DNA of 64,000 nucleotides from positions 62,001 through 126,000 of the forward strand of contig JAMOLT010000009.1 in the NCBI GenBank assembly GCA_027068915.1, read 5' to 3'. A program made the position numbers and the translations under genes. This document shows positions 4,308-52,892 of this stretch, one piece after another. The stretch's first letter is position 1. Every line of letters begins with the position of its first letter. Under the pieces are notes generated by a model, which saw nothing but the letters and a program-made list of their open reading frames with translations, had not been told where the DNA came from and did no database searches. The DNA comes from Sedimenticola sp. Lineage in GTDB: Bacteria; Pseudomonadota; Gammaproteobacteria; Chromatiales; Chromatiaceae.

Positions 4308-5726
4308 TCATGCGGAAGAGGGGTGTGCAGATTGCAATGGATAGGTGGCACCCAGTTTTGGCATCACAACTTTTGTATTGTTCAACAACTTGGAAAAGGT
4401 CTGCATGCTTTTCTCTTCCCCGTGAACCAAATAGGTGGTGCCCGGATTGCCGGTTTTCTGTTGCCAGGCCAGTAGTTCTGCCTGATCCGCATGGGCGGAA
4501 AACCCACCAATGGTAAAGATTTCAGCATTTACCGAAAATTCCTCACCGAAGATGCGTACTCTATCGGCACCATCAATGATGCGGCGTGCCAGCGTTCCCC
4601 GGGCTGCATAACCGACAAACACGATGCTGCAACGTTTGTCCCAGAGGTTGTGCTTCAGGTGATGACGCACGCGTCCTCCGGTGCACATTCCGGATCCGGC
4701 CATGATGATCGCTCCACTATCGATTTGATTGATGGCAATGGATTCTGCGGTTTGTCGGGTGAAGTGCAGGCCTGGCAGATCAAAGGGGTCGCTTCCATCC
4801 TGGGATATTTTCAATGTCTCGGTGTCATAGCATTCCGGGTGGCGTCTGAATATTTCTGTGGCGGATATGGCCATTGGAGAATCCAGAAAAACATTGATGT
4901 AATGTTTGATCTGACCATTTGCCGTGCCTTCACGCAGGTAATAGAGGATTTCCTGGGCACGTTCAAGAGCAAAAGTGGGGATAATGACATTGCCACCACG
5001 GCCGATGGTGGTATTGACTGCGTCATACAGTTCTTCGATAGATGGCTGCAGTTGTTTGTGCAGGCGATCACCATAGGTGGTTTCCATGATTACGGTGTCA
5101 GCTTTTGGAGGTGTTGTGGGGTTCCGCAAAATGGCTCGGTTACTGTTGCCGAGATCACCGGAGAAGAGCACTGTGTGTCGATGTCCTTCTTCCTGGAGTT
5201 CCAGATAAATACATGCAGAACCAAGAATATGCCCGGCATCAATAAAGGTGGCACGAATGCCGGGTGCAATGTCTATGGGTTGGTTGTATACAGCATGTCG
5301 TCCGAAGCAGTCCAGGCTGTTCAATGCATCCAGGGTTGTATAGAGTGGCTCAATGTTGGTGCGTTGCTTGCCGGCATGCCGCTGGGCCTTGCGTTGCTGG
5401 TAACGTGCCTCCTCTTCCTGCAGTCCGGCAGAATCGAGCATTACCAGGCGTGCAAGTTCAGTAGAGGCAGAAGTCGTAATGATTTCCCCTTTAAATCCTC
5501 TTTTGACCAGCAGGGGGATGCGACCGCAATGATCGAGGTGTGCATGAGTAAGCAGCAGGTAATCAATGGTCTCCGGTTTAAAACCAAACGGTTCTGCGTT
5601 CTCTTCAGCGAGTTCGTGTCCGCCCTGATACATTCCACAATCAATCAGTATGCGCTTACCCGCGCACTCTAACAGATGGCAGGAGCCAGTCACTCCCTGG
5701 TCTGCGCCATGAAAAGAGATATTCAT
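4308..5726 (-). CDS. Metallo-beta-lactamase/beta-CASP hydrolase, probable RNase
   Basis: Two-metal hydrolase of the CPSF73/beta-CASP group; relatives act as RNA exo- or endonucleases. About 472 residues. The metal site motif LTHAHLDHCGRIP lies near residue 60, DAGHILGSA and FSGDLGNSNRAIL follow, and the beta-CASP insert occupies the second half, with GSGMCTGGRVRHHL and FSAHADQAELLAW near the C-terminus. The ATG at 5726 (MNISFHGADQG) has GAGGAT upstream and begins directly in the first strand of the fold, so the track's 30-residue extension is probably untranslated. Its grouping with aldolase, a stress protein and a Crp-type regulator suggests a stress or low-energy regulon; the RNA target is unknown. 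Confidence 0.88.
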   Translation of the reverse strand: MNISFHGADQGVTGSCHLLECAGKRILIDCGMYQGGHELAEENAEPFGFKPETIDYLLLTHAHLDHCGRIPLLVKRGFKGEIITTSASTELARLVMLDSAGLQEEEARYQQRKAQRHAGKQRTNIEPLYTTLDALNSLDCFGRHAVYNQPIDIAPGIRATFIDAGHILGSACIYLELQEEGHRHTVLFSGDLGNSNRAILRNPTTPPKADTVIMETTYGDRLHKQLQPSIEELYDAVNTTIGRGGNVIIPTFALERAQEILYYLREGTANGQIKHYINVFLDSPMAISATEIFRRHPECYDTETLKISQDGSDPFDLPGLHFTRQTAESIAINQIDSGAIIMAGSGMCTGGRVRHHLKHNLWDKRCSIVFVGYAARGTLARRIIDGADRVRIFGEEFSVNAEIFTIGGFSAHADQAELLAWQQKTGNPGTTYLVHGEEKSMQTFSKLLNNTKVVMPKLGATYPLQSAHPSSA

Positions 5727-5846
5727 TGTTGTCCATCCTCTGAAAAATCTGCTCCTTGGGCATATGCTGTGGCCAAAAGCAGAAAAAGAATATTGTTGGT
5801 ATGGCTTTCGGTGCAATAGAAATGCTGATTCCAGTTGTCTAGTACA

Positions 5847-9779: not shown

Positions 9780-10706
9780 TCAGTCCTCTTGTACCTGTGG
9801 CTTGATTTCATCTTCTGCATTTGTTGCTGGCGGGAGATGACCATCTGTAGCCAGGGCCGGTTTTTCCTCATTGTTGCGAAGTAGTGGTGGTATATCTTCC
9901 AGATTGCCATCCGTATCCTTTCCGTATTCCAGCGTTACCTCCACGCGCCGGTTTAACGCTCGATTTTTAGCAGTGTCATTGGGAGCCAGGGGTCTGGTAT
10001 CTGCAAATGCTTTTATCTCAAACCGCTCCTTGTCGATGATACTGTCCTTGCTCAATTCATGGAGCACGCTTACAGCACGGGACGCCGAGAGCTCCCAGTT
10101 GGAGCGGAAATGGGTGTTGTGAATGGGGATATCATCCGTATGCCCGGAAACTACAATCCTGCCGCTGGTAGGTTGGATGGCCTTGTTGATCTTGGTAATG
10201 ACATCCTTGAACGGCTCGATCATTTTGGCACTGCCTGAGGGAAAAGATCCTTTTTCCTGGATCCGAATAATGATTTTTTGGTCTTCAATATCCACCTCGA
10301 TAAAGCCCTTTTCAATTTCCTCCTTGAGCGCCACCTTGATTTTTTCGCCTTCTTTTTCCAGGTCAGATTTTTTGGGCTTGTTTGTTCCAAGAACTGGAAA
10401 CTGTCGGAAATCATCCATAGTGGACTGCCGCACCTGATTCATGGGGGTAGGCTGGGTTTTGCCGGGGGAAAACTCGCGGGCAATAATATTGATTCCCTTC
10501 GGGGGATCCTTGACATTGACTTGCCGTTGTACGCCAAAAGCCTGCTTCATGGAGCCTGCAACCTGTTTGTATTTCTGTACATCCATTTCCGAGAATGAAA
10601 ACAGCAAAACGAAGAATGCAAGCAGCAAGGACATCAAATCTGCGAAAGTCATTACCCACATGGGGATGCCTTCCGGGCATTTCTTTGGCTCGCAGTTGTC
10701 ACTCAT
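9780..10706 (-). CDS. pomB: Flagellar stator protein PomB/MotB
   Basis: Stator subunit of 308 residues. A short cytoplasmic N-terminus (CPEGIPMW) leads into one membrane helix, MTFADLMSLLLAFFVLLFSFSEMD, whose aspartate binds the coupling ion. A periplasmic linker follows, then an OmpA-like peptidoglycan-binding domain (VVSGHTDDIPI ... NWELSASRAVSVLHEL ... NRRVEV). The N-terminal sequence and the KYKQVAGSMKQAFGVQ stretch resemble Vibrio PomB, so sodium coupling is likely but not proven. It lies between pomA and the pilZ gene. Confidence 0.92.
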   Translation of the reverse strand: MSDNCEPKKCPEGIPMWVMTFADLMSLLLAFFVLLFSFSEMDVQKYKQVAGSMKQAFGVQRQVNVKDPPKGINIIAREFSPGKTQPTPMNQVRQSTMDDFRQFPVLGTNKPKKSDLEKEGEKIKVALKEEIEKGFIEVDIEDQKIIIRIQEKGSFPSGSAKMIEPFKDVITKINKAIQPTSGRIVVSGHTDDIPIHNTHFRSNWELSASRAVSVLHELSKDSIIDKERFEIKAFADTRPLAPNDTAKNRALNRRVEVTLEYGKDTDGNLEDIPPLLRNNEEKPALATDGHLPPATNAEDEIKPQVQED

Positions 10707-11680: not shown

Positions 11681-13285
11681 TCAGGCGGAGCTAAACTGGT
11701 TGCGTCCCTTGTGCTTGGACTGGTAGAGAGCCTGATCTGCACGCTCAAAGGCATCTTCAGGAGTGTCTCCTTTTTGGTACTCACTGATGCCACAGGAAAC
11801 GGTAATGGTGACTTTCTTTTTTCGAAAATGAAAAGCACACTGTTCCACAGCATTTCGTAACTTTTCTGCTATCGCCATGGCGCCGTTGGCATTGGTTTCT
11901 GGCAGGAGCAGCACAAACTCATCCCCTCCATAGCGGGCGATCAGATCGGTTTCCCGGGTCATTTTCTGCAGTTGCCCGGCAATGATCTTGAGCGCCTTGT
12001 CACCTGCCCGATGGCCAAAGTTGTCATTGATCTGTTTGAATTTATCAATATCCACAACCATGATGGAAAGGGGCTGCTTATAGCGTTTCCAGCGGGCATA
12101 TTCCTGCTGCAATCGCTCTTCATAGGCGTGACGATTCGGGATGCCGGTCAATGTGTCGTTGAACGCCTGCAGGTTTTGCTCGCTGGCCTTTTTACGCAGG
12201 GCTTCTGTTTCCTGCTCCACTTCGTTCAGGCGCTGAACCAGAACTTCCATTTTTTCTTCAGCAGCCTCTACCAGCTTTTGTTCCTGAAGCTGAAACTCCT
12301 CCATATGATTACGGATGGCATCTACACGTTGTTGAACCATGGACTTTAATTGGTTGAGATCAGTAGCTGATCTGGCCTGGGATTCGATATGACTGGTTTG
12401 TTCCTGTATTTCCTCTTCCAGTTTGTGGTGGCATTCGTTGATAGCCTGGTTGGTAGAGTTTGATTCTTCCAGGGCGCCGTCAATTGTTGACAGACGATTC
12501 ATGAGCTGCCCAAGGAAATCTTCCAGCCCTTTTCTTTCCTGGTGTATTACGCTGCGAATATTGTGTATCAGGTTGGTGATATCCTCAATCACCTGCGGTA
12601 CCTGGTGGAGCTCCGGTTCGTCCACCAGCGTTAGCTTTATGCTCTTCACCTGTTCCTCCAGTTCGGAAGGGACAGACAGATCGTCCAGCAGTTGAAGCAG
12701 CTTCTCATTGATTTTTGCTAGCACATCATGGTTTTCTGCAGGGGCTTCACCTGCTCCTTTGAACAGGGAGGAAAGCAGCCCCCGGCTTTTTGATGTGGCA
12801 GACTGATTGCCCAAGCTGCCCTGCAAGGCCTGATTCAGCAGCGGCAGGCAGGCTTCGAGATTATCTGCAATTTCGATTTTGGTTCGTGTTTCCAGTGAAC
12901 GGCTAACAACAGGTTCCCACTCTTTCTGGTACTGATCCGGTAGTTGCAAGTGGCTCAGAAAATCACCTAACAGTTGTCCTATCTCTTCCGCCTGGGCCGG
13001 GCGGTTTGTGCTGGCCTGCATTAAAAAACGGTACAGTTTCTCTGAAATGCGCTTTAGATCAGGAAAGCTTGCACTACGCAAATCGTCTTGCAGGGATTCC
13101 AGTACTTCATCCAGCTGTTCATCCCAACCATTGGCAGCAAAACTCAGGCGCAAGAGAATGTCCTGAAAATATTGCTTGTCCTTCTGTGCTACTTTGTCAG
13201 TTTCAGAGCCTGCGGAAACAGGAGAAAGTTTTACAGGCTCTCTCTTGATGCTGTCTTGCTCAATGGTCTGATTCAGGTTTGACAT
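11681..13285 (-). CDS. GGDEF diguanylate cyclase
   Basis: Probable c-di-GMP synthase, 534 residues. The first 290 residues are helical and of unknown family; a long coiled coil (about 290-370) follows, then a C-terminal GGDEF domain with an intact active site (RYGGDEFVLLLPE) and an inhibitory-site RETD five residues before it. No membrane segments, so it is cytoplasmic. It lies downstream of flgMN on the same strand but has its own sigma28 promoter with an almost perfect consensus. This ties c-di-GMP production to late flagellar gene expression. The input signal is unknown. Confidence 0.88.
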   Translation of the reverse strand: MSNLNQTIEQDSIKREPVKLSPVSAGSETDKVAQKDKQYFQDILLRLSFAANGWDEQLDEVLESLQDDLRSASFPDLKRISEKLYRFLMQASTNRPAQAEEIGQLLGDFLSHLQLPDQYQKEWEPVVSRSLETRTKIEIADNLEACLPLLNQALQGSLGNQSATSKSRGLLSSLFKGAGEAPAENHDVLAKINEKLLQLLDDLSVPSELEEQVKSIKLTLVDEPELHQVPQVIEDITNLIHNIRSVIHQERKGLEDFLGQLMNRLSTIDGALEESNSTNQAINECHHKLEEEIQEQTSHIESQARSATDLNQLKSMVQQRVDAIRNHMEEFQLQEQKLVEAAEEKMEVLVQRLNEVEQETEALRKKASEQNLQAFNDTLTGIPNRHAYEERLQQEYARWKRYKQPLSIMVVDIDKFKQINDNFGHRAGDKALKIIAGQLQKMTRETDLIARYGGDEFVLLLPETNANGAMAIAEKLRNAVEQCAFHFRKKKVTITVSCGISEYQKGDTPEDAFERADQALYQSKHKGRNQFSSA

Positions 13286-41136: not shown

Positions 41137-42530
41137 GCCAACCAGCAGCCCAAATTCCGCAGTTGCCACGTAGCCCACTATGGCTGCGGCGCCTGAATAA
41201 ATATGAAAAACGTGCTGCCCACGCTCGGCCACTGGTAGTGGAAGGGCGGGTCACCCGAGTTGTCGGTCTTACCATAGAAGCAGTCGGCATTCATGCGCCC
41301 GTGGGTGCAAGGTGCATGATTCACACGCCGAATGATGTAGTGGAATCTGAAGTGGTTGGCTTTGCCGAGGATCGCACCTTCCTCATGCCGATCGGCGATA
41401 GCCGCGGGCTGATGCCCAATGCGCGGGTAATTCCTGCCGAAGATGCCTGTGATGCCTTGGTGGGTGATCACCTGCTGGGCCGGGTTATTGACGCTACAGG
41501 CAAGCCTCTGGACGGGAAAGGGAGAATTCAGTACAGCGCACGCAAGCCGCTTCTGGGAAAAAGCATCAATCCACTTTCACGGTGCCCCATCGATACGCCC
41601 CTGGATGTGGGGGTTTGTGCGATCAACTCTATGTTGACCGTAGGACGGGGACAGCGTATCGGCCTGTTTGCCGGCAGTGGTGTGGGCAAGAGCATGCTGT
41701 TGGGCATGATGACCAAATACACCAATGCTGATGTTGTGGTGGTAGGGCTTATCGGTGAACGGGGCAGGGAGGTAAAGGAGTTTGTGGAGAACATCCTTGG
41801 TACTGTCGGTCGCCAACGGGCAGTGGTGGTTGCCAGTCCTGCGGACAACCCGCCCCTGCTGCGCATGCATGGTGCCTGGCTCTCTACAGCGATTGCAGAG
41901 TATTACCGTGATCAGGGCAAACATGTGCTGCTGCTGATGGATTCACTTACCCGTTTCGCCCAGGCACAACGGGAGATCGCCCTGGCGATTGGGGAACCAC
42001 CCGCCACCAAGGGTTATCCGCCTTCCGTATTTGCACGCCTGCCACAATTGGTAGAGCGTGCCGGAAACGGCGGGGAAGGAGGCGGTTCCATCAGTGCTTT
42101 CTATACCGTACTGGCAGAAGGTGATGACCAGAATGATCCGGTGGTGGATTCTGCACGCGCCATTCTTGACGGGCATGTCGTATTGTCGCGGGAAATTGCC
42201 GAAAGCGGACATTATCCTGCCATCGATGTAGAAGCGTCCGTCAGCCGCGTCATGAACGATATAGTGTCTGAAGAACACTTGCTGGCGGCACGGCGTTTTC
42301 GCCAGATCTATTCCACCTACCACAAAAATCAGGATCTGATCAGTGTGGGGGCATACAAGGAAGGCAGCGACCCGAGAGTGGATGAGGCAATTCGTTACTA
42401 CCCACAGCTTACACAATTTTTACAGCAGGACAAACAGACCGCTGTGAGTCTTAATCAGAGCGTAGGCAGCTTGCTGGATCTCACTGGAATTGAACGAACA
42501 GCGGAAGAACCCGCAGAAGGCTCAGCATGA
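41133..42530 (+). CDS. fliI: FliI, flagellar export ATPase
   Basis: ATPase of 465 residues energising type III export, related to F1-beta. Walker A is [17 protein letters not shown], Walker B is [21 protein letters not shown], and [24 protein letters not shown] is the conserved type III ATPase block. Normal length. Four-base overlaps with both neighbours. Confidence 0.96.
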
Positions 42531-42976
42531 CTCGTAGCAAACCATTGGTTACAGTAGCTAAAATTGCCACGGATCGTGAGCGTGATGCGGCACGGGAAAT
42601 GAGCCATAGCCGCGGAGAGATGGATGTTCATGCGGAGCGGCTCGAAGAACTCGACAACTACCGGCAGCAGTATCTGCAGCAATTTCAGGCCGCCAGCAAG
42701 CGAGGGCTGGGGGTTGTACAGATGCAGGAATACCAGATATTTCTGGGGCGGCTTGATGAGGCGATAAATCAGCAGCAGAAACTGCTGGAGGCCAGCCAGT
42801 CAGCCCACGAAGAAAGACAGAAGCTATGGCTGAACCTGCGAGGGAAGGTAAAGGCACTGGACAAGATTATTCATCAACGGCAGCAGCAGCAAATTGCAGA
42901 GCAGAGCCGTCGTGAACAAGGTGAGTCTGATGACCAGTCCTGCAGCCTTGTCCACTGGAAAACACTATCCTATTAA
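42527..42976 (+). CDS. fliJ: FliJ, export ATPase stalk protein
   Basis: Coiled-coil protein of 149 residues, the gamma-like stalk of the FliI ring. It is charged and predicted helical throughout, with [45 protein letters not shown] as the family core. Last gene of fliEFGHIJ. FliK normally follows closely; here a repeat and a minus-strand signalling operon intervene. Confidence 0.93.
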
Positions 42977-42986
42977 TCCCAATTCC

Positions 42987-43092
42987 CTTAACAGGGCGTT
43001 GAAAAATGTCGTTTTTCAACATCCTGTATGCCGCACAAGGATGTGCGGCCATTTTCAATGACTATAAGCCATTGAAAATGGAGGAAAGACAA
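42987..43092. repeat. REP-like composite of three hairpins (copy 2)
   Basis: Three hairpins in a row: ACAGGGCGTTGAAAAA/TTTTTCAACATCCTGT, GCCGCACA/TGTGCGGC and CATTTTCAATG/CATTGAAAATG. The last two match 27790-27857. It lies between convergent fliJ and the hybrid kinase gene and may act as a two-way terminator. Confidence 0.6.
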
Positions 43093-43128
43093 AACAGATT
43101 ACGGCCAATAAGGTTTCTCATGCGCCCA

Positions 43129-46100
43129 TCAGGATGTTTTCTCTGAAGCAACCGACAGATGGGAAACCTTTGGGTTGCTATCCGCAGGCAGGAAACAGGT
43201 TCTGGCCAGTGCCGGGATATTCTCCGGGAGAACGGGCCGGCTGAACAGAAAGCCCTGCACCATGTCACAGGAAACATCCCTGAGCACCTTCAATTGCTCT
43301 TCTTCTTCCACGCCTTCTGCCACTACTACATGCCCAAGAGCATGAGCGATATCCACAATGGTTCCCAGCAAAATTGAGGCGCTCTCATCTTTCAATATAT
43401 CAGAAATGAAAATGCGATCGATCTTGAGGCAATCAATAGGCAGTGATTTCAGTGAGGACAGGGAGGAATAGCCTGTTCCAAAATCATCCATGCTGATCCT
43501 TACACCCAGTTCACGAAGCTGCTCGAAGATACTGAAATCATCCCCGGTGGTCTGCACCACATTCTCGGTAATTTCCAGCTCAAGGTTGGTCGGTGACAGG
43601 CCAGTCTGCTGCAATACATCTTTAACTGTAGTGAGCAGAGCGGGGTCATTGAAGTGCAATGGCGAAATATTTACCGCGATGCGGAAGTCCGGCAGGCCAA
43701 GCATTCTCCACTTGGCAGCCTGATTGCAGGCGGTTTTCAGCACCCAGTTTCCCAATGGCTTTATCATGCCGATGCGCTCAGCCACCTCGATAAACCGGAA
43801 TGGAGGGATCAGTCCCTGCTCCGGATGTTGCCAACGGATCAAGGCTTCTACTCCAACCATTTTGCCATTTTCCAGGTCTATTTGGGGCTGGTAATGCAGC
43901 TCCAGCTGTTCGCGGTCGATGGCGAGACGCAAATCCTGCTCCATTTGCAGGCGCTGATCCGCCTCGATGGTATGCCTTTTCTGGTAGAAGGCGTAACGAT
44001 GTTTGCCCTCTTTTTTTGCCGCATACATGGCGCTGTCTGCCGCTTTGAGCAAGGATTGGAAGTCATCTCCATCCTGGGGGAAGTGGGCAATTCCTATGCT
44101 GCAGCGAGGCCGCAGCTCCCTGGTCAGCAGCTGTAGAGGGCGGTTTATCTCCCGCAGGCTGCGGTTGGCAACCTCTGCGGCATCGCGGTGATCGGAAATG
44201 TTGTCCACGAGGATACAGAATTCATCTCCACTCAATCGGGCGATAAAATCAGTTTCCCGTAATATGCCCTGCAGTCGCTGGGCAACGATCTTCAACAGTT
44301 CGTCACCCGTGTCATGTCCCAGGCTGTCATTGATATCCTTGAAGCCATCGAGATCCAGATAGAGCAGGGCGAATTGCTCCTCGCGTCGCTGGGCGGCCCG
44401 GATGACGTCTTCCACATGCTTGTAAAAATATGCACGGCTTGCCAGGCCGGTCAGTTCGTCTGAATAGGCCAGCTGGCGGATTCGCCTTTCTGTTGCCCGT
44501 TGCCGGGTGATATCCTGCACCGTTCCCAGTATTACGTGATTGGCGTATGGGGCTATGCCCAGCTCCTGGTGTACGATAATCACGGGGCGGCCACCGACAA
44601 CAAGCCGGTAATCAATCGGTCTCAGTGGCGCACCATCTGCAGTGGCGGTAATTGTGTTTCGCAGGTACTCCCTGTCCTTGGGATGTGTCCAGTTGAGGTA
44701 GTCATCCAACGACAAGTTGTGTATATCCGGATCCACACCCAGCATTGCAGCCAGGTTTTCAGAAAGAGTCAGCTGATCTTTGGTTGAGTCCCAGCGCCAG
44801 TACCCCAGGCCGGCTATACGTTGTGCGCTGATGAGTCTTTCCTGGTTTTCCTGCAAGGCTTTGGCATTCCGGCTAGCACGCAGTTGAAAGCGAATACGCT
44901 GCAGCAGGATGGGATAGTTTACCGGTTTCAAGACGAATCCAGATGCGCCGGATTCAAAGGCAAGATCCACTGAACCGGTATCTTCCAGGCCGGTAACCAT
45001 CAATATGGGCGTATCCTGCAAGCCAGGCAGCCGCAGCAAGCGACGGCAGGCTTCAAAACCATCCATGCTTTCCATCATTGCATCCAATAGCAGCAGGTCT
45101 GGCTTGTGCCTGGCTGACAGGGTAATGGCATCCTTGCCATTGTCGGCTTCAATAACCTGATACCCGGCAGAAACCAGCACCTCTTTTGTCGCCATGCGAA
45201 AGCCATGGTCATCGTCCACAAGCAAGATCAGCTCTTTGGCTGCGGATTCTTCAGTTGCAGATTCTGTGGTTAACTGTGGGGTGGTTTCAGTGACAACCAG
45301 GGTTTTTGTATCCGCCTTGAGCTCAAGCTTCAATGCGTCCAGTGCATGATCCAGGGCCGCTTCTATTGCATCGATGAGCTTTGCTGCTTTCTGTAGTTCT
45401 TTCCTGCCTGCGGTTTCTTCCAGCGCTTTGCAGCGATTGGAAAGCTCCACAGCTCCCAGGTTGGCGCTAGCGGATTTCATGCTATGGGCGAGAAATTGCA
45501 GTTGTTCTGCATCCTGCTTTTCCAGGGCTTTGCGCATTTTTTCCATGCCCTCTGGCGCCTGATGCAGAAAATGATCAACCACCTTCATCAGTACGTTACG
45601 GCCTGTTTTATGGCTAAGGTACCGTAGCTGCTGCAATACTTCCGGGTTGAGCAGGTTGCCTGATTGCGCCGGGCCGTGTGCAGCAGGATCGGCTGATGGT
45701 GAGGGCTGGGGTTCAAGGAGCCACTGGCGCAACAAGGCTGCGAGCTGCTGCTGCTTGAAGGGTTTGCTTTGGTAACTGTTCATGCCGGCAGCCAGGCAAC
45801 GCTCCTTGACTCCTTTTTGCACATCGGCAGTAAGCGCTATGATGGGTATGGGTTTGCGGTCTTGTGCTTGTTCCATCTGACGAATTTTGCCTGTGGCGTC
45901 AAAACCATCCATTTTTGGCATGTGGCAATCCATTAATATCAAGTCATATTCTGTCTTGGTAAAGGCCTGCACGGCTTCTTCCCCGTTTTCGGCAAGATCA
46001 ACTTTGCAGCCCAGGGCAATCAGCATGCTGGTAGCCACCTCTTGGTTGACCTTGTTGTCCTCGGCCAGCAGAATCCTGCCCTGTATTTTTGGCAGCTTGG

Positions 46101-48093
46101 TTGTGTCGGTGGAATGCAGCACTGTTTTCTTATCCATTATCTCGCACAGGCATTCCAGCAATTGCTGTTGGCGCACCGGCTTTTGCAAGTAGCAGGCAAT
46201 GCCTGAGTCTCTCATGGTGATAGAGTCGAGGTCGACATCTGCAGAGCTGAGCGCCACCATGCACGGAGTAGGTATGCTTTCGTCCTGCTGAATGTGGTGG
46301 GCCAGCTCCAGCCCATCCATTCCCGGCACATGCCAATCCAGCAGCACGAGCTGATAGGGATCATTTGCAGATGCTGCCTGTTGCAGCCGCTCCAATGCCT
46401 CTGCACCGGAAGCTGCGCTGCCGCTGCGCATGTCCCATGCGATGACTTGATTGTGCAGAATCTCCCGGTTTACCGGATGGTCATCCACGACCAGAACTCG
46501 TGTGCCCCGCAGGATATCCGTCTGAATAGACCGTGGTTCTTTCGCTTCAGCATTGGCCAGAGAAATGGTGAAACGGAAATGTGCGCCTTCTCCGGGAGAG
46601 CTTTCAAGCTTCAGTTTTCCGCCCATGAGAGTTACCAGACGCTTGGCGATGGCCAAACCGAGCCCGGTGCCTCCATGACGCCTGGTGGTGGAGCCATCGG
46701 CCTGACTGAATGCCTCAAAAATTCGTTCCTGTTGCTCTGCAGCGATGCCGGGACCGGTATCAGATACCTCAAACGATATTTGCTGTTTGCCATTTTTCAG
46801 CATGGTTGTTCTTACCCAGAGTTTCACCTCTCCACGTTCGGTAAACTTGATGGCATTGCCTAGCAGGTTAATCAGTACCTGACGTAGCCTTACGGCATCC
46901 CCGCTGACTCTGGCGGGCAGGCTTGGCGGTAAATTGGGCACCAGTTCCAGCCCCTTGCGGTGTGCCTGCCCGGCCATCATTTCCAGGGTATCTTCCAGCA
47001 TGTTGCGTAAATCGAAGTCATCATTGTTGAGCTGGAGCTTGTCTGCTTCTATCTTGGAGAAATCGAGAATGTCATTGATAACCCCCATCAGGCTCTCTGC
47101 CGACCTGTGGGCAATATCCGCAAGGCGGCGTGTGTGCACGTCCAGGCCGCTGTCCAGCAGCAGCTCTGTCATGCCCATGACCCCGTTCATCGGGGTGCGG
47201 ATTTCATGGCTCATGGTGGCGAGAAACTCGCTTTTCGCCCGGCTGGCAGCTTCTGCAACTTCTCTGGCGTTTTCCGCAGATTCCTTGGCTTGCTGCAGAT
47301 CCCGGGTTCGTTCGCCCACTTTCTGTTGCAGCTCTTCCTGGTAGGAGGCCAGTTTGCTTTCCCGCTCTTCCAGTTGCTCCAGCATGTAGTTGAAGTTATT
47401 GATGATGGTGCCTATTTCATCATTGTCTCCAGGCTCCAGGCGTAGCCGGAAATCCTGATTGTCGGAAACCTGCTGCATACCTTCCACCAGTTTCCGGATT
47501 GGTGTGGAAATACGCTGGTGAAGCCGGCTGGCAAGAAGATATACACCACCCATGATGAGCAGCCAGAGAATGGAGATGATGAGGAGATATTCCTTTATGC
47601 GCTGGTACAGCAAGCTCAGGTCAAACTGGATGTGAATGTACCCGAGATGGTCACCTTTGAGGAAGATGGGCTTGAAAGTGTCGACGTGATCGAACTCGAT
47701 GCGATTCTGTGCGACGGTGGCTTTCTTCCGGAGTAAATGGGCCAGCCATGCCTGGCTTTCCTGGTCAATGGCAAGTGTAGCGGGTTTATTTCGATGATAA
47801 TGTGCAAATATGGACCCATCAGGAAGATACAGGGTGGCTGTTTCTACAGAAGCTTCCGATTGCAGGGAGTCAAGCAGCTGTTCTGCAATTCTGTTGTCGT
47901 TGAAGCTAAGGGCAGCAGATGAGTTGGTGGCGATAAAGTCAGCCAACACCTCGGATTTCTCCACCAGGTTTTGCCTATAATTGATGAATTCAAGAGCCAG
48001 GAAGGCAATTGATGCAACCAGCAGGGCAATGCCGCAGGTCAGGAGAATCATGCGCCTGAGCTTGTGAGCAATGATCAGGTTCTTGGCGTTCAT
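43129..48093 (-). CDS. Membrane hybrid histidine kinase with phosphorelay, GGDEF and EAL
   Basis: Giant inner-membrane signalling protein, 1654 residues. In order: helix 1 (about 13-35); a periplasmic CHASE8-like domain (ATNSSAALSFNDNRIAEQLL) as in YfiN; helix 2 (about 166-186) and HAMP; HisKA with H296 (MSHEIRTPMNG); ATPase domain; receivers with D586, D722 and D1004; an HPt with H870 (AHSMKSASANLG) between receivers 2 and 3; a PAS domain (about 1110-1210); GGDEF with SGDEF at 1288; and EAL with the intact VEALIRW at 1415 and DDFGTGYSSL. The intact EAL suggests phosphodiesterase output; SGDEF may still be active or only bind GTP. It overlaps yfiR by four bases. Last gene of the TonB-receptor operon. 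Confidence 0.9.
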   Translation of the reverse strand: MNAKNLIIAHKLRRMILLTCGIALLVASIAFLALEFINYRQNLVEKSEVLADFIATNSSAALSFNDNRIAEQLLDSLQSEASVETATLYLPDGSIFAHYHRNKPATLAIDQESQAWLAHLLRKKATVAQNRIEFDHVDTFKPIFLKGDHLGYIHIQFDLSLLYQRIKEYLLIISILWLLIMGGVYLLASRLHQRISTPIRKLVEGMQQVSDNQDFRLRLEPGDNDEIGTIINNFNYMLEQLEERESKLASYQEELQQKVGERTRDLQQAKESAENAREVAEAASRAKSEFLATMSHEIRTPMNGVMGMTELLLDSGLDVHTRRLADIAHRSAESLMGVINDILDFSKIEADKLQLNNDDFDLRNMLEDTLEMMAGQAHRKGLELVPNLPPSLPARVSGDAVRLRQVLINLLGNAIKFTERGEVKLWVRTTMLKNGKQQISFEVSDTGPGIAAEQQERIFEAFSQADGSTTRRHGGTGLGLAIAKRLVTLMGGKLKLESSPGEGAHFRFTISLANAEAKEPRSIQTDILRGTRVLVVDDHPVNREILHNQVIAWDMRSGSAASGAEALERLQQAASANDPYQLVLLDWHVPGMDGLELAHHIQQDESIPTPCMVALSSADVDLDSITMRDSGIACYLQKPVRQQQLLECLCEIMDKKTVLHSTDTTKLPKIQGRILLAEDNKVNQEVATSMLIALGCKVDLAENGEEAVQAFTKTEYDLILMDCHMPKMDGFDATGKIRQMEQAQDRKPIPIIALTADVQKGVKERCLAAGMNSYQSKPFKQQQLAALLRQWLLEPQPSPSADPAAHGPAQSGNLLNPEVLQQLRYLSHKTGRNVLMKVVDHFLHQAPEGMEKMRKALEKQDAEQLQFLAHSMKSASANLGAVELSNRCKALEETAGRKELQKAAKLIDAIEAALDHALDALKLELKADTKTLVVTETTPQLTTESATEESAAKELILLVDDDHGFRMATKEVLVSAGYQVIEADNGKDAITLSARHKPDLLLLDAMMESMDGFEACRRLLRLPGLQDTPILMVTGLEDTGSVDLAFESGASGFVLKPVNYPILLQRIRFQLRASRNAKALQENQERLISAQRIAGLGYWRWDSTKDQLTLSENLAAMLGVDPDIHNLSLDDYLNWTHPKDREYLRNTITATADGAPLRPIDYRLVVGGRPVIIVHQELGIAPYANHVILGTVQDITRQRATERRIRQLAYSDELTGLASRAYFYKHVEDVIRAAQRREEQFALLYLDLDGFKDINDSLGHDTGDELLKIVAQRLQGILRETDFIARLSGDEFCILVDNISDHRDAAEVANRSLREINRPLQLLTRELRPRCSIGIAHFPQDGDDFQSLLKAADSAMYAAKKEGKHRYAFYQKRHTIEADQRLQMEQDLRLAIDREQLELHYQPQIDLENGKMVGVEALIRWQHPEQGLIPPFRFIEVAERIGMIKPLGNWVLKTACNQAAKWRMLGLPDFRIAVNISPLHFNDPALLTTVKDVLQQTGLSPTNLELEITENVVQTTGDDFSIFEQLRELGVRISMDDFGTGYSSLSSLKSLPIDCLKIDRIFISDILKDESASILLGTIVDIAHALGHVVVAEGVEEEEQLKVLRDVSCDMVQGFLFSRPVLPENIPALARTCFLPADSNPKVSHLSVASEKTS

Positions 48094-48686
48094 GGCATAT
48101 CCTTGAAATTGTGTACATGGATAACGGTTGCCAGCTCCAGCAACGGAGCGCTGATTTTCAGCCCCGCTGCATGGGCGGCATCCAGGTTTATCTCGAAGCC
48201 GATATGTTTTTGCCCAAGTACCAACCCGATGATGCCGCCATCCTTAGCAAAGTTCCTGGCATCACTGACAGTAAGAATGGGTTGATTTTTAAAAGTATGC
48301 AGAATCGATTTCATGAATGCTGCCTTTGAGTCACTGACGAACAGCAGCTGGCAACTGCTTTCAACACTGGTGGAATAGCTGTAGTGGCGAATGGCAATGG
48401 CTATGCCATTGACCTTGCGTTCCTCCAGTACATTGAGGTTACTGCCAAAATCATCCCTGCCAAGAACGCAGATATTGAAGCTTTCCGGCGTGGCGCTTTC
48501 TGTGGCTGGCGGCCATTCGACAAAACGGGTCAGCTTGTATAGCAACGCCACCTTGATCTTGTATTCTGACAGCAATGGTTCTGTGGCATTGGCATGCAGA
48601 TGAGCGGCAAACAATACCAGCAAGAGATAGCCAAACCATTTTGCCCGGGTTGGCCTGATCGTGAGAATTTCAATCAGAAATCCCAA
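48090..48686 (-). CDS. yfiR: YfiR-family periplasmic protein
   Basis: Periplasmic protein of about 198 residues of the YfiR/DUF4154 family. P. aeruginosa YfiR binds and represses the cyclase YfiN. After a signal region (YLLLVLFAAHLHANA) the family pattern is clear: EYKIKVALLYKLTRFVEWP, FNICVLGRDDFG, CQLLFVSDS, ILTVSDARNFAKDGGIIGLVL and KHIGFEINLDAAHAAGLKISAPLLELATVI. The track start is TTG at 48686, without a good ribosome site and overlapping the receptor gene by 13 bases, so coupling or another non-ATG start is likely. It overlaps the kinase gene by ATGA. Probable partner of the kinase CHASE8 domain. Confidence 0.88.
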   Translation of the reverse strand: MGFLIEILTIRPTRAKWFGYLLLVLFAAHLHANATEPLLSEYKIKVALLYKLTRFVEWPPATESATPESFNICVLGRDDFGSNLNVLEERKVNGIAIAIRHYSYSTSVESSCQLLFVSDSKAAFMKSILHTFKNQPILTVSDARNFAKDGGIIGLVLGQKHIGFEINLDAAHAAGLKISAPLLELATVIHVHNFKDMP

Positions 48687-50725
48687 CGGATTTTACCGTA
48701 GACTGAACGCTCAACTTCAGTGACCGAGAACAAGCTCTCTCCCACAAACTCCCGGTGATGACTGTCCAACAGGTTGTGCGCAACCAGGGAGAGTTCCAGG
48801 TTTTTTACCGGATGCCAGGCAATCATGGCATTCAGGCTGATGTAGCTGGGTACGGGCATCTTTATGGAATAACTGGTCTGCTCCAAGTCATGCACATAAT
48901 AGACCCAGAAATCTACGGCCACCTGGTTGCTCAAGTCCATCATGGAGCGTATGGATAGCTGGTGTTTTGGGCTTGAGGTTTCGCTGATGTTGGTTTCGTC
49001 ATTTGAAAAGCTGGCATCGCCGGTCAAAGAACTGGAAACGTCGATAAAGCTGTAGTTTGACTGGAGACGCCACCATTCCAGCGGTCTCCAGTCTATGGCC
49101 AATTCCAGGCCATAACTATGGGCGGCGATGGTATTGTTGAATATCACATTGGATAGTGGATCTTGTGTACGGGTTTTTTCAAAAGCCTGCAAGTTGTCAT
49201 ATTTGTTATAGAAAACTGCAAGATCCAGGGAGAGATTCTCTTTTGGCTGTACCCGGTACCCGATTTCATATGCCAGGAGCTCTTCGGACTGGAAGTCCTT
49301 CGCACCTACGCTGTAGACGGTTTTCGGTGCATACGTTGGGGGCAGGGGGGTGATCATTGCCACAATACGTGATTCGCGTTCAAGGCGGGAGGGGGTTCTC
49401 AGCGCTTTGGAGATTGCCCCCCACAGGGTGCTGCGCTGGTTGGGCATCCAGGCAATGCGGATACTGGGTTGAATTTCGAAGCCCGTGAAATCATTGTGCT
49501 CAAATTTTGATCCCAGGGTCAAAAGCAGGGTATCCGGTGCCAGTGCTATTTCGTCCTGTATGAAAGCGCTGTACAGATTCAATCTGCGGCTGTCCGGCAG
49601 AAAACTAACCGCAAAGGTATTGTCAAAGTTGTCCCGAATGTGCCGGTACCCCAGCCCCCAAACGATTTCATGTCCTGTAATCCCATGATATTGATGCTGA
49701 AAATCAATATCCACAGTATCATGTGTTTGGGTCAGAATTCCTTCTGAACGGTAGGTATGGTCAACATAGAGCTGCAGGGTAGCGCTGCTGGATTCAGACA
49801 ATTGGTGGCTCCGCCTGCCCAATAGATTCCAGCCCGATGATTCGATACTGTCCTGTACGTTGGCAGCCAGATAAAACGGTGCATAGCCCGCATTGGCGGG
49901 ATCTTCAGGGTCTTTCCATAAATTGAGCGTCTGGTTTTCATCCGCTTTGTAAATATCCCCTTGTAGGGTCCAGCTGTCGGTTTGAGTAGTCTGAACATCG
50001 ACACGGAAACCGCCACGCAGGCTTTGCCAGCTATCTCCGTTGTTTTTCCCCTGGGTATAGGAGCTGTCCCTGTCGTTGTATTTCAGGTAGGCGCGTGCGG
50101 CAACACCATGTTTGGTTTTGATACCGTAGCGAATACTGCCAAAGGCTTTTTCCTCGTTTCCGGCACCGACTGTCAGCAGGCCGCCCTGTGTTTGGTTCGC
50201 CTGTTTGGTGATGATGTTGATCACGCCATTAACTGCATTGGCGCCCCATGCCGTAGCTCCTGGCCCGCGGATGACCTCTATGCGCTCAATGTCTTCCAGC
50301 AAGGTATCCTGGGCATCCCAGTAAACCCCTGAAAATGCGGGATTGTATACTGTTCTCCCATCAACCATCACCAACAGCTTGTTGGCAAACTGATTGGCGA
50401 AACCCCGACTGCTGATTGCCCATTTGTTGGCATCAATGCGCCCGACCTGGATTCCGGGCGCCATGCGCAACGCTTCCGGGATGCTTGTTACGCCGGAGCG
50501 CAGAATGTCATCATGGGTGATGACGAATATTGCAGCAGCGGCCTCGTTGAGTGGCTGTTTCTTCTTGGAAACCAGGGTTACTTCCATTGAAAGCAAATCT
50601 TCCAGGGGCATATCCATATAGTCTTCAGCCAAGCCATGGGCCTGGGCTGAAGATGCCAGCAATAGAAGAGGCGCCGCCAGGCCCGCAAGGGGGCGGCGAT
50701 AGCCTTTGTGAAGAGTTTTTACCAT
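48674..50725 (-). CDS. TonB-dependent outer-membrane receptor, signalling type
   Basis: Outer-membrane 22-strand barrel with plug, 683 residues. Signal peptide: RPLAGLAAPLLLLASSAQA. The mature N-terminus MDMPLEDLLSMEVTLVSKKKQPL leads into the plug (AAAAIFVITHDDILRSG, then IPEALRMAPGIQVGRID, RGFANQFANKLLVMVDGRTVY and ERIEVIRGPGATAWGANAVNGVINIITK). The C-terminus is KIRWDF, ending in phenylalanine as barrels do. ATG 50725 has GGGA upstream and lies just after the sigma28-like promoter, which rules out the track's 50809 start. Ligand unknown. First gene of an operon with yfiR and the hybrid kinase, so sensing is more likely than plain uptake. Confidence 0.9.
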   Translation of the reverse strand: MVKTLHKGYRRPLAGLAAPLLLLASSAQAHGLAEDYMDMPLEDLLSMEVTLVSKKKQPLNEAAAAIFVITHDDILRSGVTSIPEALRMAPGIQVGRIDANKWAISSRGFANQFANKLLVMVDGRTVYNPAFSGVYWDAQDTLLEDIERIEVIRGPGATAWGANAVNGVINIITKQANQTQGGLLTVGAGNEEKAFGSIRYGIKTKHGVAARAYLKYNDRDSSYTQGKNNGDSWQSLRGGFRVDVQTTQTDSWTLQGDIYKADENQTLNLWKDPEDPANAGYAPFYLAANVQDSIESSGWNLLGRRSHQLSESSSATLQLYVDHTYRSEGILTQTHDTVDIDFQHQYHGITGHEIVWGLGYRHIRDNFDNTFAVSFLPDSRRLNLYSAFIQDEIALAPDTLLLTLGSKFEHNDFTGFEIQPSIRIAWMPNQRSTLWGAISKALRTPSRLERESRIVAMITPLPPTYAPKTVYSVGAKDFQSEELLAYEIGYRVQPKENLSLDLAVFYNKYDNLQAFEKTRTQDPLSNVIFNNTIAAHSYGLELAIDWRPLEWWRLQSNYSFIDVSSSLTGDASFSNDETNISETSSPKHQLSIRSMMDLSNQVAVDFWVYYVHDLEQTSYSIKMPVPSYISLNAMIAWHPVKNLELSLVAHNLLDSHHREFVGESLFSVTEVERSVYGKIRWDF

Positions 50726-50766
50726 GTCTATTCCCATTTGCATCATCCAATCATGCTCATTTATGG

Positions 50767-50794
50767 TATCGGCCAGAGCGGGAACTAACTTAAG
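50767..50794 (-). promoter_or_regulatory. Sigma28-like promoter for the TonB-receptor/yfiR/kinase operon
   Basis: Minus-strand TTAAGTTA-N12-GCCGATAC matches both FliA elements, with one extra spacer base compared with the other seven sites. The expected start is about 35 bases before the receptor ATG. Confidence 0.6.
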
Positions 50795-50956
50795 GGGGCC
50801 TTGAATCAAACCTGTTTATGCAGGTATGGGCCTGGTTTGGCTGTCCCTGCACCAGATTACTTGCCATAACACGTCAAAATAGTGAGCTTTTCCCGTATTT
50901 GTTATAAATAAAGCATATTTCGTGCCACAGCGTGTCACCGGTTGAATCGATAAAAA

Positions 50957-50974
50957 TTGGCATCGATGTTGCTT
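50957..50974 (+). promoter_or_regulatory. Sigma54 promoter for fliK
   Basis: TTGGCATCGATGTTGCTT fits the -24/-12 consensus with GG-N10-GC spacing, about 40 bases before fliK. Confidence 0.82.
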
Positions 50975-51014
50975 GCATCTTTGGCAAAGACCGTTAATCG
51001 TGCCGGAGTAAGGA

Positions 51015-52892
51015 ATGCAGAACCCGTTTTTCAGCCTGAGCTTGCCTTTGATGCCTGATGCCGAGTTGCGTCAATCCACCGGGATGCCAGGTGGCCTTGC
51101 CCCCTTGCCCAATCAGGGAAAAGTCGGTGAAAGTGGTCGGAATTCCGGCTTTTCAGGAAGCCTGCAGCAGGCGATTTCTGCCGCTACTGAAGAGCCACCA
51201 GCCAGGCCAGGCGGAGATTCCGGGCTGCCGGCAAACGGCAATCTATTGCCGGATCTGCCGGTGGAGGCAGCCACCCCCCAGTTGGGGGAGGTCGAAGACA
51301 GTCCGATATTACGCGAAGAGGATGGACAAGCGCTGGTGGGTGGGAACGTGCTGCTTCCGCAGGACGCGGATGCCCCGCCTGCCATGTTGATGCCTGGCTT
51401 GTTAATGCAGTCTTCCTCTGGCGAGCAGTCCGACTTTCCGGTGCAGGAGTTGCCGGTGTCTTTCAGTGGCAGTTCTCCGGGCCGGGAGCAATTGCCAAGA
51501 CCTGTAATGACCACTGCTGCTACTGAAGAAAATATCCTTGCCCGGCAATTATCTCCCGTTACAAACAACAGTAATTCCTTCACTTCGGAACTGCGGCTTC
51601 AGCATGCTTTGCATCTTCCGGCAGCTGATGCTTCCCGGCCTGTGGCGATCAAGGTAGACGGCATGGCGGAATTATCCCTTCCGGTATTGCCTGCTACAAA
51701 TCGAAATGGTGTTGCTCCGACACTGGCGCGTGGGGATGTTCCTGAACTCCCGAAAACTGCTGCTCCTTTGTCTGTGGCGATCAAGGCAGATGGTATGGTG
51801 GAATCACCCCTTCCTGCATCACCAGCCAACCAGCGAAATGATGTTGCTTCGGTGCCGGCAGACCAGCGTGTTGCTGATTCCCTGAAAACCGTTACCCCTC
51901 AGCCCACGACAACCAGAATGGAAGGAATGACGAAAGAGGCTTCCAGTGGAGGATCTCCTGCGGCACTGGCAGAGAAATCTGGCGTTGTTGCAGCTTCAGA
52001 ATCCGTACGCCAGAACCCTGTTGCCATGGAAAACATTCTTCGCACACAAGCAGCAACAACCAAACCGGCTGGTATGTCTGCAGCAGCATTGGCCGGCGTG
52101 GCGGCAGAAAACCACGATATAGTGGCTTCAGAACTGCCGCGCCAACCAATTGCAGGCCTGCAAAATCTTAAAAATCAACAGCCTTTGGAGTCGAAGACAG
52201 AAAGGCAGACCGGCATCACCAGGGAAAGGGTAATTTCCCCCGCAGCTTTTCAGAATCTGATGGAGGCACATCGGCAGCCGCTCCAGGCCATGCCTGCTGG
52301 TGGAGCGTCTTTTTCGATTGAGCAGATGGCTGCTGCCCGTTCAGAAACCCATGCCCCCCCGCCTCCCATACAGGCATCTTTGAATCTTGCAGGCAACTCC
52401 GCACCACCAATTCCGCTGAGCACCCCAGCATCATTACCAGCCGCTGTGCCGCAGAGCATTTCTGTGCCTGTAGGCCATGCCGCCTGGGAACAGAGTATGG
52501 CCAGGCAAGTGCTGCAGGCCGGACAAAACCAGTTACAAACGCTGGAAATCCGGCTTAATCCGGCAAATCTGGGGGCATTGAATGTGCATATTTCCCTGGA
52601 AGCTGATGCTGCCAGCATTGTATTTTCCAGCCACCATGCAGTGGTTCGTGAGGCTGTGGAAGGGGCAATTCCCCGCTTGCGGGAAATGTTCAACAGCAGT
52701 GGCATCAGTCTTGGGGATGTCAATGTCGCAAACCAAAGTGCGGCAGAACAGCAGGGGCGGCAACCTTCCCGACAGTACCATGCCGGGCAAGTCACAGGTA
52801 CAGGCGCTGCCAGGCAGTCAGAGCCAGCTTCGGATGGTATCCGGGAAATGCCCAAAAAATCTTCGGAGCAACTGCTGGACTACTATATCTGA
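51015..52892 (+). CDS. fliK: FliK, hook-length control protein
   Basis: Secreted molecular ruler of 625 residues that switches export from hook to filament proteins. The first 450 residues are low-complexity, rich in P, A and S, and contain degenerate 44-residue repeats. The C-terminal Flg_hook domain is clear: LQTLEIRLNPANLGALNVHISLEADAASIVFSSHHAVVREAVEGAIPRLREMFNSSGISLGDVNV. Longer than enteric FliK (about 400) but within the range of polar flagellates. Own sigma54 promoter. Divergent from the TonB-receptor operon. Confidence 0.93.
   Translation: MQNPFFSLSLPLMPDAELRQSTGMPGGLAPLPNQGKVGESGRNSGFSGSLQQAISAATEEPPARPGGDSGLPANGNLLPDLPVEAATPQLGEVEDSPILREEDGQALVGGNVLLPQDADAPPAMLMPGLLMQSSSGEQSDFPVQELPVSFSGSSPGREQLPRPVMTTAATEENILARQLSPVTNNSNSFTSELRLQHALHLPAADASRPVAIKVDGMAELSLPVLPATNRNGVAPTLARGDVPELPKTAAPLSVAIKADGMVESPLPASPANQRNDVASVPADQRVADSLKTVTPQPTTTRMEGMTKEASSGGSPAALAEKSGVVAASESVRQNPVAMENILRTQAATTKPAGMSAAALAGVAAENHDIVASELPRQPIAGLQNLKNQQPLESKTERQTGITRERVISPAAFQNLMEAHRQPLQAMPAGGASFSIEQMAAARSETHAPPPPIQASLNLAGNSAPPIPLSTPASLPAAVPQSISVPVGHAAWEQSMARQVLQAGQNQLQTLEIRLNPANLGALNVHISLEADAASIVFSSHHAVVREAVEGAIPRLREMFNSSGISLGDVNVANQSAAEQQGRQPSRQYHAGQVTGTGAARQSEPASDGIREMPKKSSEQLLDYYI
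51641..52090 (+). repeat. Degenerate 132-bp tandem repeats within fliK
   Basis: TGTGGCGATCAAGG begins units at 51641 and 51773, exactly 132 bases (44 codons) apart. Related units start near 51905 and 52037-52057. The protein repeat is roughly VAIKxDGM...LP..P, then a variable half. Confidence 0.6.

Follow-up and report, generated by a model that had tools for sequence, protein, structure and literature searches.

A candidate outer-membrane-to-c-di-GMP signaling cassette composed of a TonB-dependent receptor, a YfiR-family protein and a CHASE8 hybrid kinase

Within a 64,000-nucleotide stretch of a Sedimenticola sp. genome (contig JAMOLT010000009.1, positions 62,001 to 126,000; hereafter the window), three adjacent minus-strand genes encode a TonB-dependent receptor, a YfiR-family periplasmic protein and a hybrid histidine kinase with a periplasmic CHASE8 domain. 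We propose that these genes probably form a trans-envelope cassette built on the periplasmic core of YfiR and YfiN, in which the ligand-loaded receptor would replace the lipoprotein YfiB and capture YfiR. The trio recurs across genomes in a fixed order, while the cytoplasmic output attached to it varies.

The operon and its recurrence across genomes

The features of the receptor and YfiR genes, together with those of the periplasmic part of the kinase, are as follows.

48674..50725 (-): TonB-dependent receptor gene, 683 residues from the ATG at 50725
50579..50638 (-): N-tail of the mature receptor, periplasmic (HGLAEDYMDMPLEDLLSMEV), lying ahead of the TonB-box region and extending into it
50222..50551 (-): receptor plug domain, PF07715 (Pfam)
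48770..50083 (-): receptor beta-barrel, PF00593 stretch (Pfam)
48090..48686 (-): gene of the YfiR-family periplasmic protein, 198 residues from a TTG, start uncertain
48129..48563 (-): DUF4154 domain, PF13689 (Pfam)
43129..48093 (-): CHASE8-HAMP-HisKA-HATPase-REC-REC-Hpt-REC-GGDEF-EAL hybrid kinase gene, 1654 residues
47629..47976 (-): CHASE8 periplasmic domain, PF17152, 66 bits
47902..47916 (-): AALSF, equivalent of the YfiN AAVVF motif, kinase residues 60-64

In a Pfam scan, the receptor carries Plug and TonB_dep_Rec domains and has no N-terminal signaling (STN) domain. It scores 686 bits against the NCBIfam model NF053590 ('TOL_0244 family'), above the cut-off of 645. The earliest possible start of its frame is a TTG at 50809, upstream of the ATG at 50725. 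With the signal peptide boundary judged by eye, only about 20 residues separate the signal peptide from the TonB-box region. Solved TonB receptors mostly align to the window receptor only from about residue 75 (the TonB-box region) onward, which indicates that the short tail before the TonB box is mostly not common to them.

The YfiR-family protein scores 144.8 bits against PF13689 (cut-off 24.9), and a Foldseek search matched its AlphaFold model to crystal structures of YfiR (4yna, TM-score 0.83, plus YfiB-bound chains). The protein misses the equivalog model NF053586 ('regulatory sequestration protein YfiR') with 53 bits against 85, and narrowly misses NF053591 (TOL_0243 YfiR-like) with 117 bits against 125. 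By these models it is a YfiR-like relative and not an equivalog of YfiR from P. aeruginosa PAO1. When aligned to PAO1 YfiR, it retains the C71-C110 pair and the equivalents of F162 and L183, and has no cysteine at either position of the C145-C152 disulfide pair. Its start is uncertain because no in-frame ATG precedes the domain, the first available start being the TTG.

In the kinase, CHASE8, HAMP, HisKA, HATPase, three REC (receiver), Hpt, GGDEF and EAL domains all score above their Pfam cut-offs. CHASE8 is flanked by transmembrane helices near residues 16-34 and 170-188, and a comparison of the periplasmic sensor region with the PDB gave no meaningful sequence match. An earlier note on this DNA had placed three minus-strand genes at 43129-50725, had named them as a TonB receptor, a YfiR and a CHASE8-HAMP hybrid kinase ending in GGDEF-EAL, and had put the receptor in the place of the lipoprotein. 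The Pfam and NCBIfam results confirm these coordinates, identities and domains, and the third gene of the operon is a TonB receptor, with no YfiB encoded there. The note had also argued from gene overlaps that the three proteins are made together. An ATGA overlap does join the yfiR stop to the kinase start, whereas the 13-bp overlap of receptor and yfiR exists only if the uncertain TTG start holds. Only four Plug-domain receptors, a single DUF4154 and a single CHASE8 are encoded in the whole 2.83-Mb genome. Because these genes are so few and the gene order recurs widely, we conclude that their adjacency is not due to chance.

The co-occurrence of the three genes, which the earlier note had put forward as a check, is borne out by a wide margin. 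We examined 274 genomes of the class using NCBI and Pfam models, which are less exposed to query bias. DUF4154 is present in 39 of these genomes and a close TOL_0244-like receptor in 24; all 24 genomes with a close receptor encode DUF4154, compared with 15 of the 250 others (Fisher p 1e-24), and 24 of 30 close-receptor places adjoin a YfiR gene. Neighborhoods were annotated by profiles made from the window proteins. In a 369-genome sample of the class, 89 YfiR genes were found, with a TonB receptor within 500 bases in 57 cases (46 upstream on the same strand) and a CHASE8-type sensor near 61 (60 downstream on the same strand); both are present for 37 and neither for 8. Pfam detected CHASE8 in 32 of 33 sensors tested, and at the E-values used the TOL_0244 model matched 30/30 receptors and the TOL_0243 model 43/43 YfiRs tested. 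Among 80 named loci anchored on the receptor, 45 show receptor, YfiR and CHASE8 in order and 9 more the receptor and YfiR only, where the query profile was built from YfiR-adjacent receptors and thus favors YfiR-bearing loci. Their labels include Gammaproteobacteria, Geobacter and Desulfo- lineages, Nitrospirota, Nitrospinaceae, Verrucomicrobia, Acidobacteria, Planctomycetota, Armatimonadota and others, although many of the records are metagenome bins, for which taxon labels can be wrong.

Across these loci, receptor, YfiR and CHASE8 are the constant part, and the cytoplasmic part ranges over a plain kinase, kinase-REC, kinase-REC-Hpt, a direct GGDEF-EAL and the fused form of the window, which also occurs in L070, L092, L109, L184, L186, L187, L189 and L193. 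The receptor accompanies 115 of 142 kinase outputs, in contrast to direct GGDEF outputs, which are mostly without it (present with 6 of 17). Judged from gene content, this is a widespread cassette with interchangeable outputs, not one peculiar to the Sedimenticola genome. In several genomes (e.g., L049, L064, L075, L083), a separate REC-GGDEF-EAL gene lies directly after a kinase that ends in Hpt. That the same REC-GGDEF-EAL unit is elsewhere the next gene and is here fused suggests that Hpt would pass phosphate to it within the window kinase. Five further proteins are fusions in which a YfiR domain is followed by a stalk of 150-190 residues, a single membrane helix and a histidine kinase.

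L090, 7409-10129: YfiR-kinase fusion
L185, 6198-8816: YfiR-kinase fusion
L247, 7042-9636: YfiR-kinase fusion
L250, 9343-11142: YfiR-kinase fusion
L327, 179-2884: YfiR-kinase fusion

A TonB receptor lies beside or near three of these five. If helical, with a rise of 1.5 A per residue, such a stalk would roughly match the width of the periplasm, so that the YfiR domain of these fusions could reach the outer membrane.

We also observed that genomes such as G032, G177, G507 and G393 contain 5 to 9 YfiR genes, many of them paired with a receptor of their own; such multiple sets in one genome suggest a repertoire of sensed ligands. In addition, L195, L198, L282 and L328 encode proteins of 360-400 residues in which the YfiR domain follows an apparent second, weaker YfiR-like half, and these genes adjoin an opposite-strand gene for a TonB receptor from another subgroup.

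Contacts of YfiR with CHASE8 and with the receptor tail

The YfiN site that YfiR binds in P. aeruginosa is AAVVF, and the YfiR residues around F162, I169 and L183 have been implicated in this binding (PMC3375315). The phenylalanine of the corresponding motif (AAxxF) is invariant among the sensors that we compared (189/189). Direct-coupling analysis (DCA) of 164 and 186 pairs placed several top pairs between the motif region and the known YfiR surface, and in the window YfiR the positions that covary with CHASE8 lie in the P181 region. Block enrichment reached 11 of the top 50 pairs compared with a shuffle maximum of 8, with the CHASE8 region chosen after a first look, so that the enrichment is modest, partly post hoc and at most suggestive. 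Protein distances correlate best between YfiR and the sensor (r 0.60), and the correlations with the receptor are 0.35 and 0.32. Taken together, the invariant motif supports a contact between YfiR and CHASE8, and covariation supports it more weakly.

For YfiR and the receptor, we calculated mutual information across 605 columns of the receptor. The top pair links YfiR column 50 to the tail just before the SLEEL/TonB-box segment, and the pair of rank 4 links YfiR column 14 to the next tail column. Once gaps were excluded and the tail was realigned, YfiR column 50 and tail column 21 formed an outlier pair. The mean of the top 20 pairs is 0.152, compared with 0.121+-0.005 in neighbor-swap shuffles, of which 0/573 reach the observed level. 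The pair also shows charge pairing, with 20 combinations of an acidic YfiR residue and a basic tail residue, no acidic-acidic and two basic-basic ones. Six shared-branch changes were counted where 0.4 were expected, the best result among all opposite-charge pairs of YfiR and receptor columns. The two tail columns (N21/N22), both of which covary with YfiR, are M65/D66 in the TTG-numbered receptor, and the window residues at the covarying places are R54 and R90 in YfiR and D66 in the receptor, which fits charge exchange. In an alignment to PAO1 YfiR, column 14 falls on S57 and column 50 on the residue preceding Q88, and these positions adjoin the pocket that receives YfiB F48 (PMC4887326). The covariation of the tail hints at a contact between YfiR and the receptor. 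The relay from receptor through YfiR to CHASE8 that the earlier note had inferred therefore gains support at both of its contacts, from tail covariation at the first and from the invariant phenylalanine and, more weakly, covariation at the second.

Proposed mechanism and competing explanations

The cytoplasmic features of the kinase through which a signal would pass are listed here.

47365..47523 (-): HAMP (Pfam)
47044..47238 (-): HisKA, phospho-acceptor H296 (Pfam)
46555..46902 (-): HATPase_c with N, G1 and G2 boxes (Pfam)
46153..46506, bounds approximate (-): receiver 1, D586 (Pfam)
45730..46074 (-): receiver 2, D722 (Pfam)
45340..45582 (-): Hpt, H870 (Pfam)
44878..45234, bounds approximate (-): receiver 3, D1004 (Pfam)
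43999..44469 (-): GGDEF domain with SGDEF signature and RETD I-site (Pfam)
43234..43938 (-): EAL domain, catalytic motifs present (Pfam)

By homology to YfiN and given the motif conserved here, resting YfiR would sit on CHASE8 through AAxxF and fix the kinase in one state. TonB boxes become free in ligand-loaded receptors, and binding of ligand to the outer-membrane receptor would free the periplasmic N-tail ahead of the TonB box. The freed tail may then bind YfiR where YfiB does in P. aeruginosa and pull it off CHASE8, as the covariation would have it. The released kinase would run an H-D-H-D phosphorelay (H296, D586/D722, H870, D1004) into REC-GGDEF-EAL and alter the level of cyclic di-GMP (c-di-GMP), either up or down, given that the cyclase domain carries an SGDEF signature and the EAL domain a full set of motifs. 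With the receptor in the role of YfiB, sensing would not need import. We infer that the covariation marks contact, that ligand frees the tail and that capture of YfiR switches the kinase. A broader proposal is that receptors of this kind form a widespread class found in several phyla, in which the tail of the ligand-loaded receptor would compete with CHASE8 for YfiR. Binding at the outer surface would thereby be reported, with no need for import, to phosphorelays and c-di-GMP, and some lineages would have fused YfiR to the kinase through a periplasm-spanning stalk. We hold this proposal tentatively, as close to evenly balanced with a slight lean toward doubt.

Several observations weigh against capture of YfiR by the receptor. 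About one-third of YfiR genes have no adjoining receptor, and a YfiR gene is likewise missing near some members of the receptor family. For YfiR and CHASE8, the strictly prior motif block in the DCA gave 4 against a shuffle maximum of 4, and in the charge scan the same-charge control outdid the expected pair. DCA on YfiR with the tail and plug yielded no overall excess over shuffles. In a non-redundant set of 64 sequences, the tail pair scored high (0.201) but was no longer top, the shuffle maximum for that pair being 0.209 (768 shuffles). The charge-change statistic is noisy, with same-charge controls reaching 1.4e-7 compared with 7e-9 for the tail pair, a margin that is real but not huge. 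Finally, the SLEEL motif of the tail also occurs in receptors of the clade that do not adjoin YfiR and is no clear discriminator (124/180 YfiR-adjacent receptors versus 23/46 others of the clade, p 0.02).

The main rival explanation is that the ligand is imported and then sensed, with TonB-dependent transport delivering it to periplasmic YfiR, whose hold on CHASE8 would change upon binding. The genome does encode TonB proteins, and the Foldseek search showed that the fold of the YfiR model also resembles substrate-binding proteins and a tryptophan-binding domain. PAO1 YfiR takes tryptophan and vitamin B6 in the YfiB pocket, but at 35-77 mM (PMC4887326), which makes the known affinity of YfiR for small molecules very weak. 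The covariation of YfiR with the tail and the long stalk of the YfiR-kinase fusions suggest direct contact instead, and we consider import followed by sensing unlikely.

It is more improbable still that the genes share regulation only, such that an uptake receptor is co-transcribed with a YfiR-kinase module that itself detects redox or envelope stress. For P. aeruginosa, YfiR has been suggested to provide a redox input (PMC4887326, PMC4655355), and some YfiR-CHASE8 pairs occur without a receptor. However, the window YfiR does not have the C145-C152 pair, the same receptor family stands in the same order in several phyla, and the receptor tail covaries with YfiR. Reverse control, in which the kinase and YfiR would govern gating or expression of the receptor without reading it, is very improbable because, although the direction of information flow is not visible in the genes themselves, the kinase acts through a phosphorelay leading to c-di-GMP and the related YfiBNR system signals from the outer to the inner membrane (PMC3375315).

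Relation to known systems and genomic setting

The proposed capture of YfiR by a receptor resembles YfiBNR (TpbB/DgcN) of P. aeruginosa and E. coli in the YfiR fold, the CHASE8-HAMP partner, the AAVVF-type motif and a co-encoded outer-membrane component. Instead of the Pal-like lipoprotein YfiB, however, the window cassette encodes a TonB receptor; it has a hybrid kinase-phosphorelay-GGDEF-EAL protein where YfiN has GGDEF, and its YfiR is without the C145-C152 disulfide pair. The window system would work like YfiBNR but is not YfiBNR, since it encodes no YfiB and its YfiR falls short of the equivalog cut-off. Also close are the modular YfiNR relatives described in 2012 (Malone et al., 2012; PMC3375315), which share the YfiR-CHASE8 core, carry GGDEF-EAL, Hpt or histidine-kinase outputs and are usually without YfiB. 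The main text of that paper contains no occurrence of TonB, which indicates that the outer-membrane arm was not described there. A search of open-access papers found none that links YfiR to a TonB receptor, and we regard the novelty of the receptor arm as provisional. If the proposal is true, it would supply the missing input for many YfiNR systems without YfiB and assign a function to many receptors whose present annotation is that of putative uptake proteins. It also yields a peptide-level prediction, namely that the tail of the receptor occupies the YfiB pocket of YfiR.

In the well-known route of TonB-receptor signaling across the envelope, FecA/FpvA-type receptors signal via a periplasmic N-terminal signaling domain to FecR and an extracytoplasmic function (ECF) sigma factor. 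The proposal for the window likewise has a TonB receptor signaling through its periplasmic N-terminus, but the cassette has no N-terminal signaling domain, FecR or sigma factor and has a short tail and YfiR instead. If true, this would be a second, cross-phylum route of TonB-receptor signaling, ending in phosphorelays and c-di-GMP. The recurrence of the trio suggests a common, apparently undescribed way to sense molecules at the outer surface and change behavior.

NCBIfam names two families after Thalassolituus oleivorans genes, TOL_0244, whose cut-off the window receptor exceeds, and TOL_0243, to which the window YfiR is close; we found no mechanism for either in the open literature. NCBI curators have probably already noticed the pair, since both families are named after consecutively numbered genes. 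TOL_0244 rises sevenfold on n-C28 alkane (PMC6304351), which may serve as a ligand lead and nothing more. OmpS of Alcanivorax dieselolei, a TonB-type receptor, is reported to start an alkane signaling cascade (PMC5174103, PMC6304351), but it is only 40% similar to TOL_0244 (PMC6304351).

In the window, the cassette breaks the order of flagellar genes (42527-51015), lying on the opposite strand between fliJ and fliK, names that were assigned from sequence and gene order. A terminator-like hairpin lies at 43030-43049, in the gap from fliJ to the stop codon of the kinase gene. The cassette occupies the same fliJ-fliK site in a congener (G377, L187), and two others (L184, L186) encode the same fused kinase at another genomic location, which shows that the cassette is portable but stable at this site. 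Close to the flagellar genes are also a GGDEF cyclase gene (11681-13285, minus strand) and a gene for a MotB-family protein (9780-10706, minus strand). Elsewhere in the window, 4308-5816 (minus strand) encodes a beta-CASP metallo-beta-lactamase RNase, with partial, sub-cut-off matches to archaeal aCPSF1 and Cas14 models.

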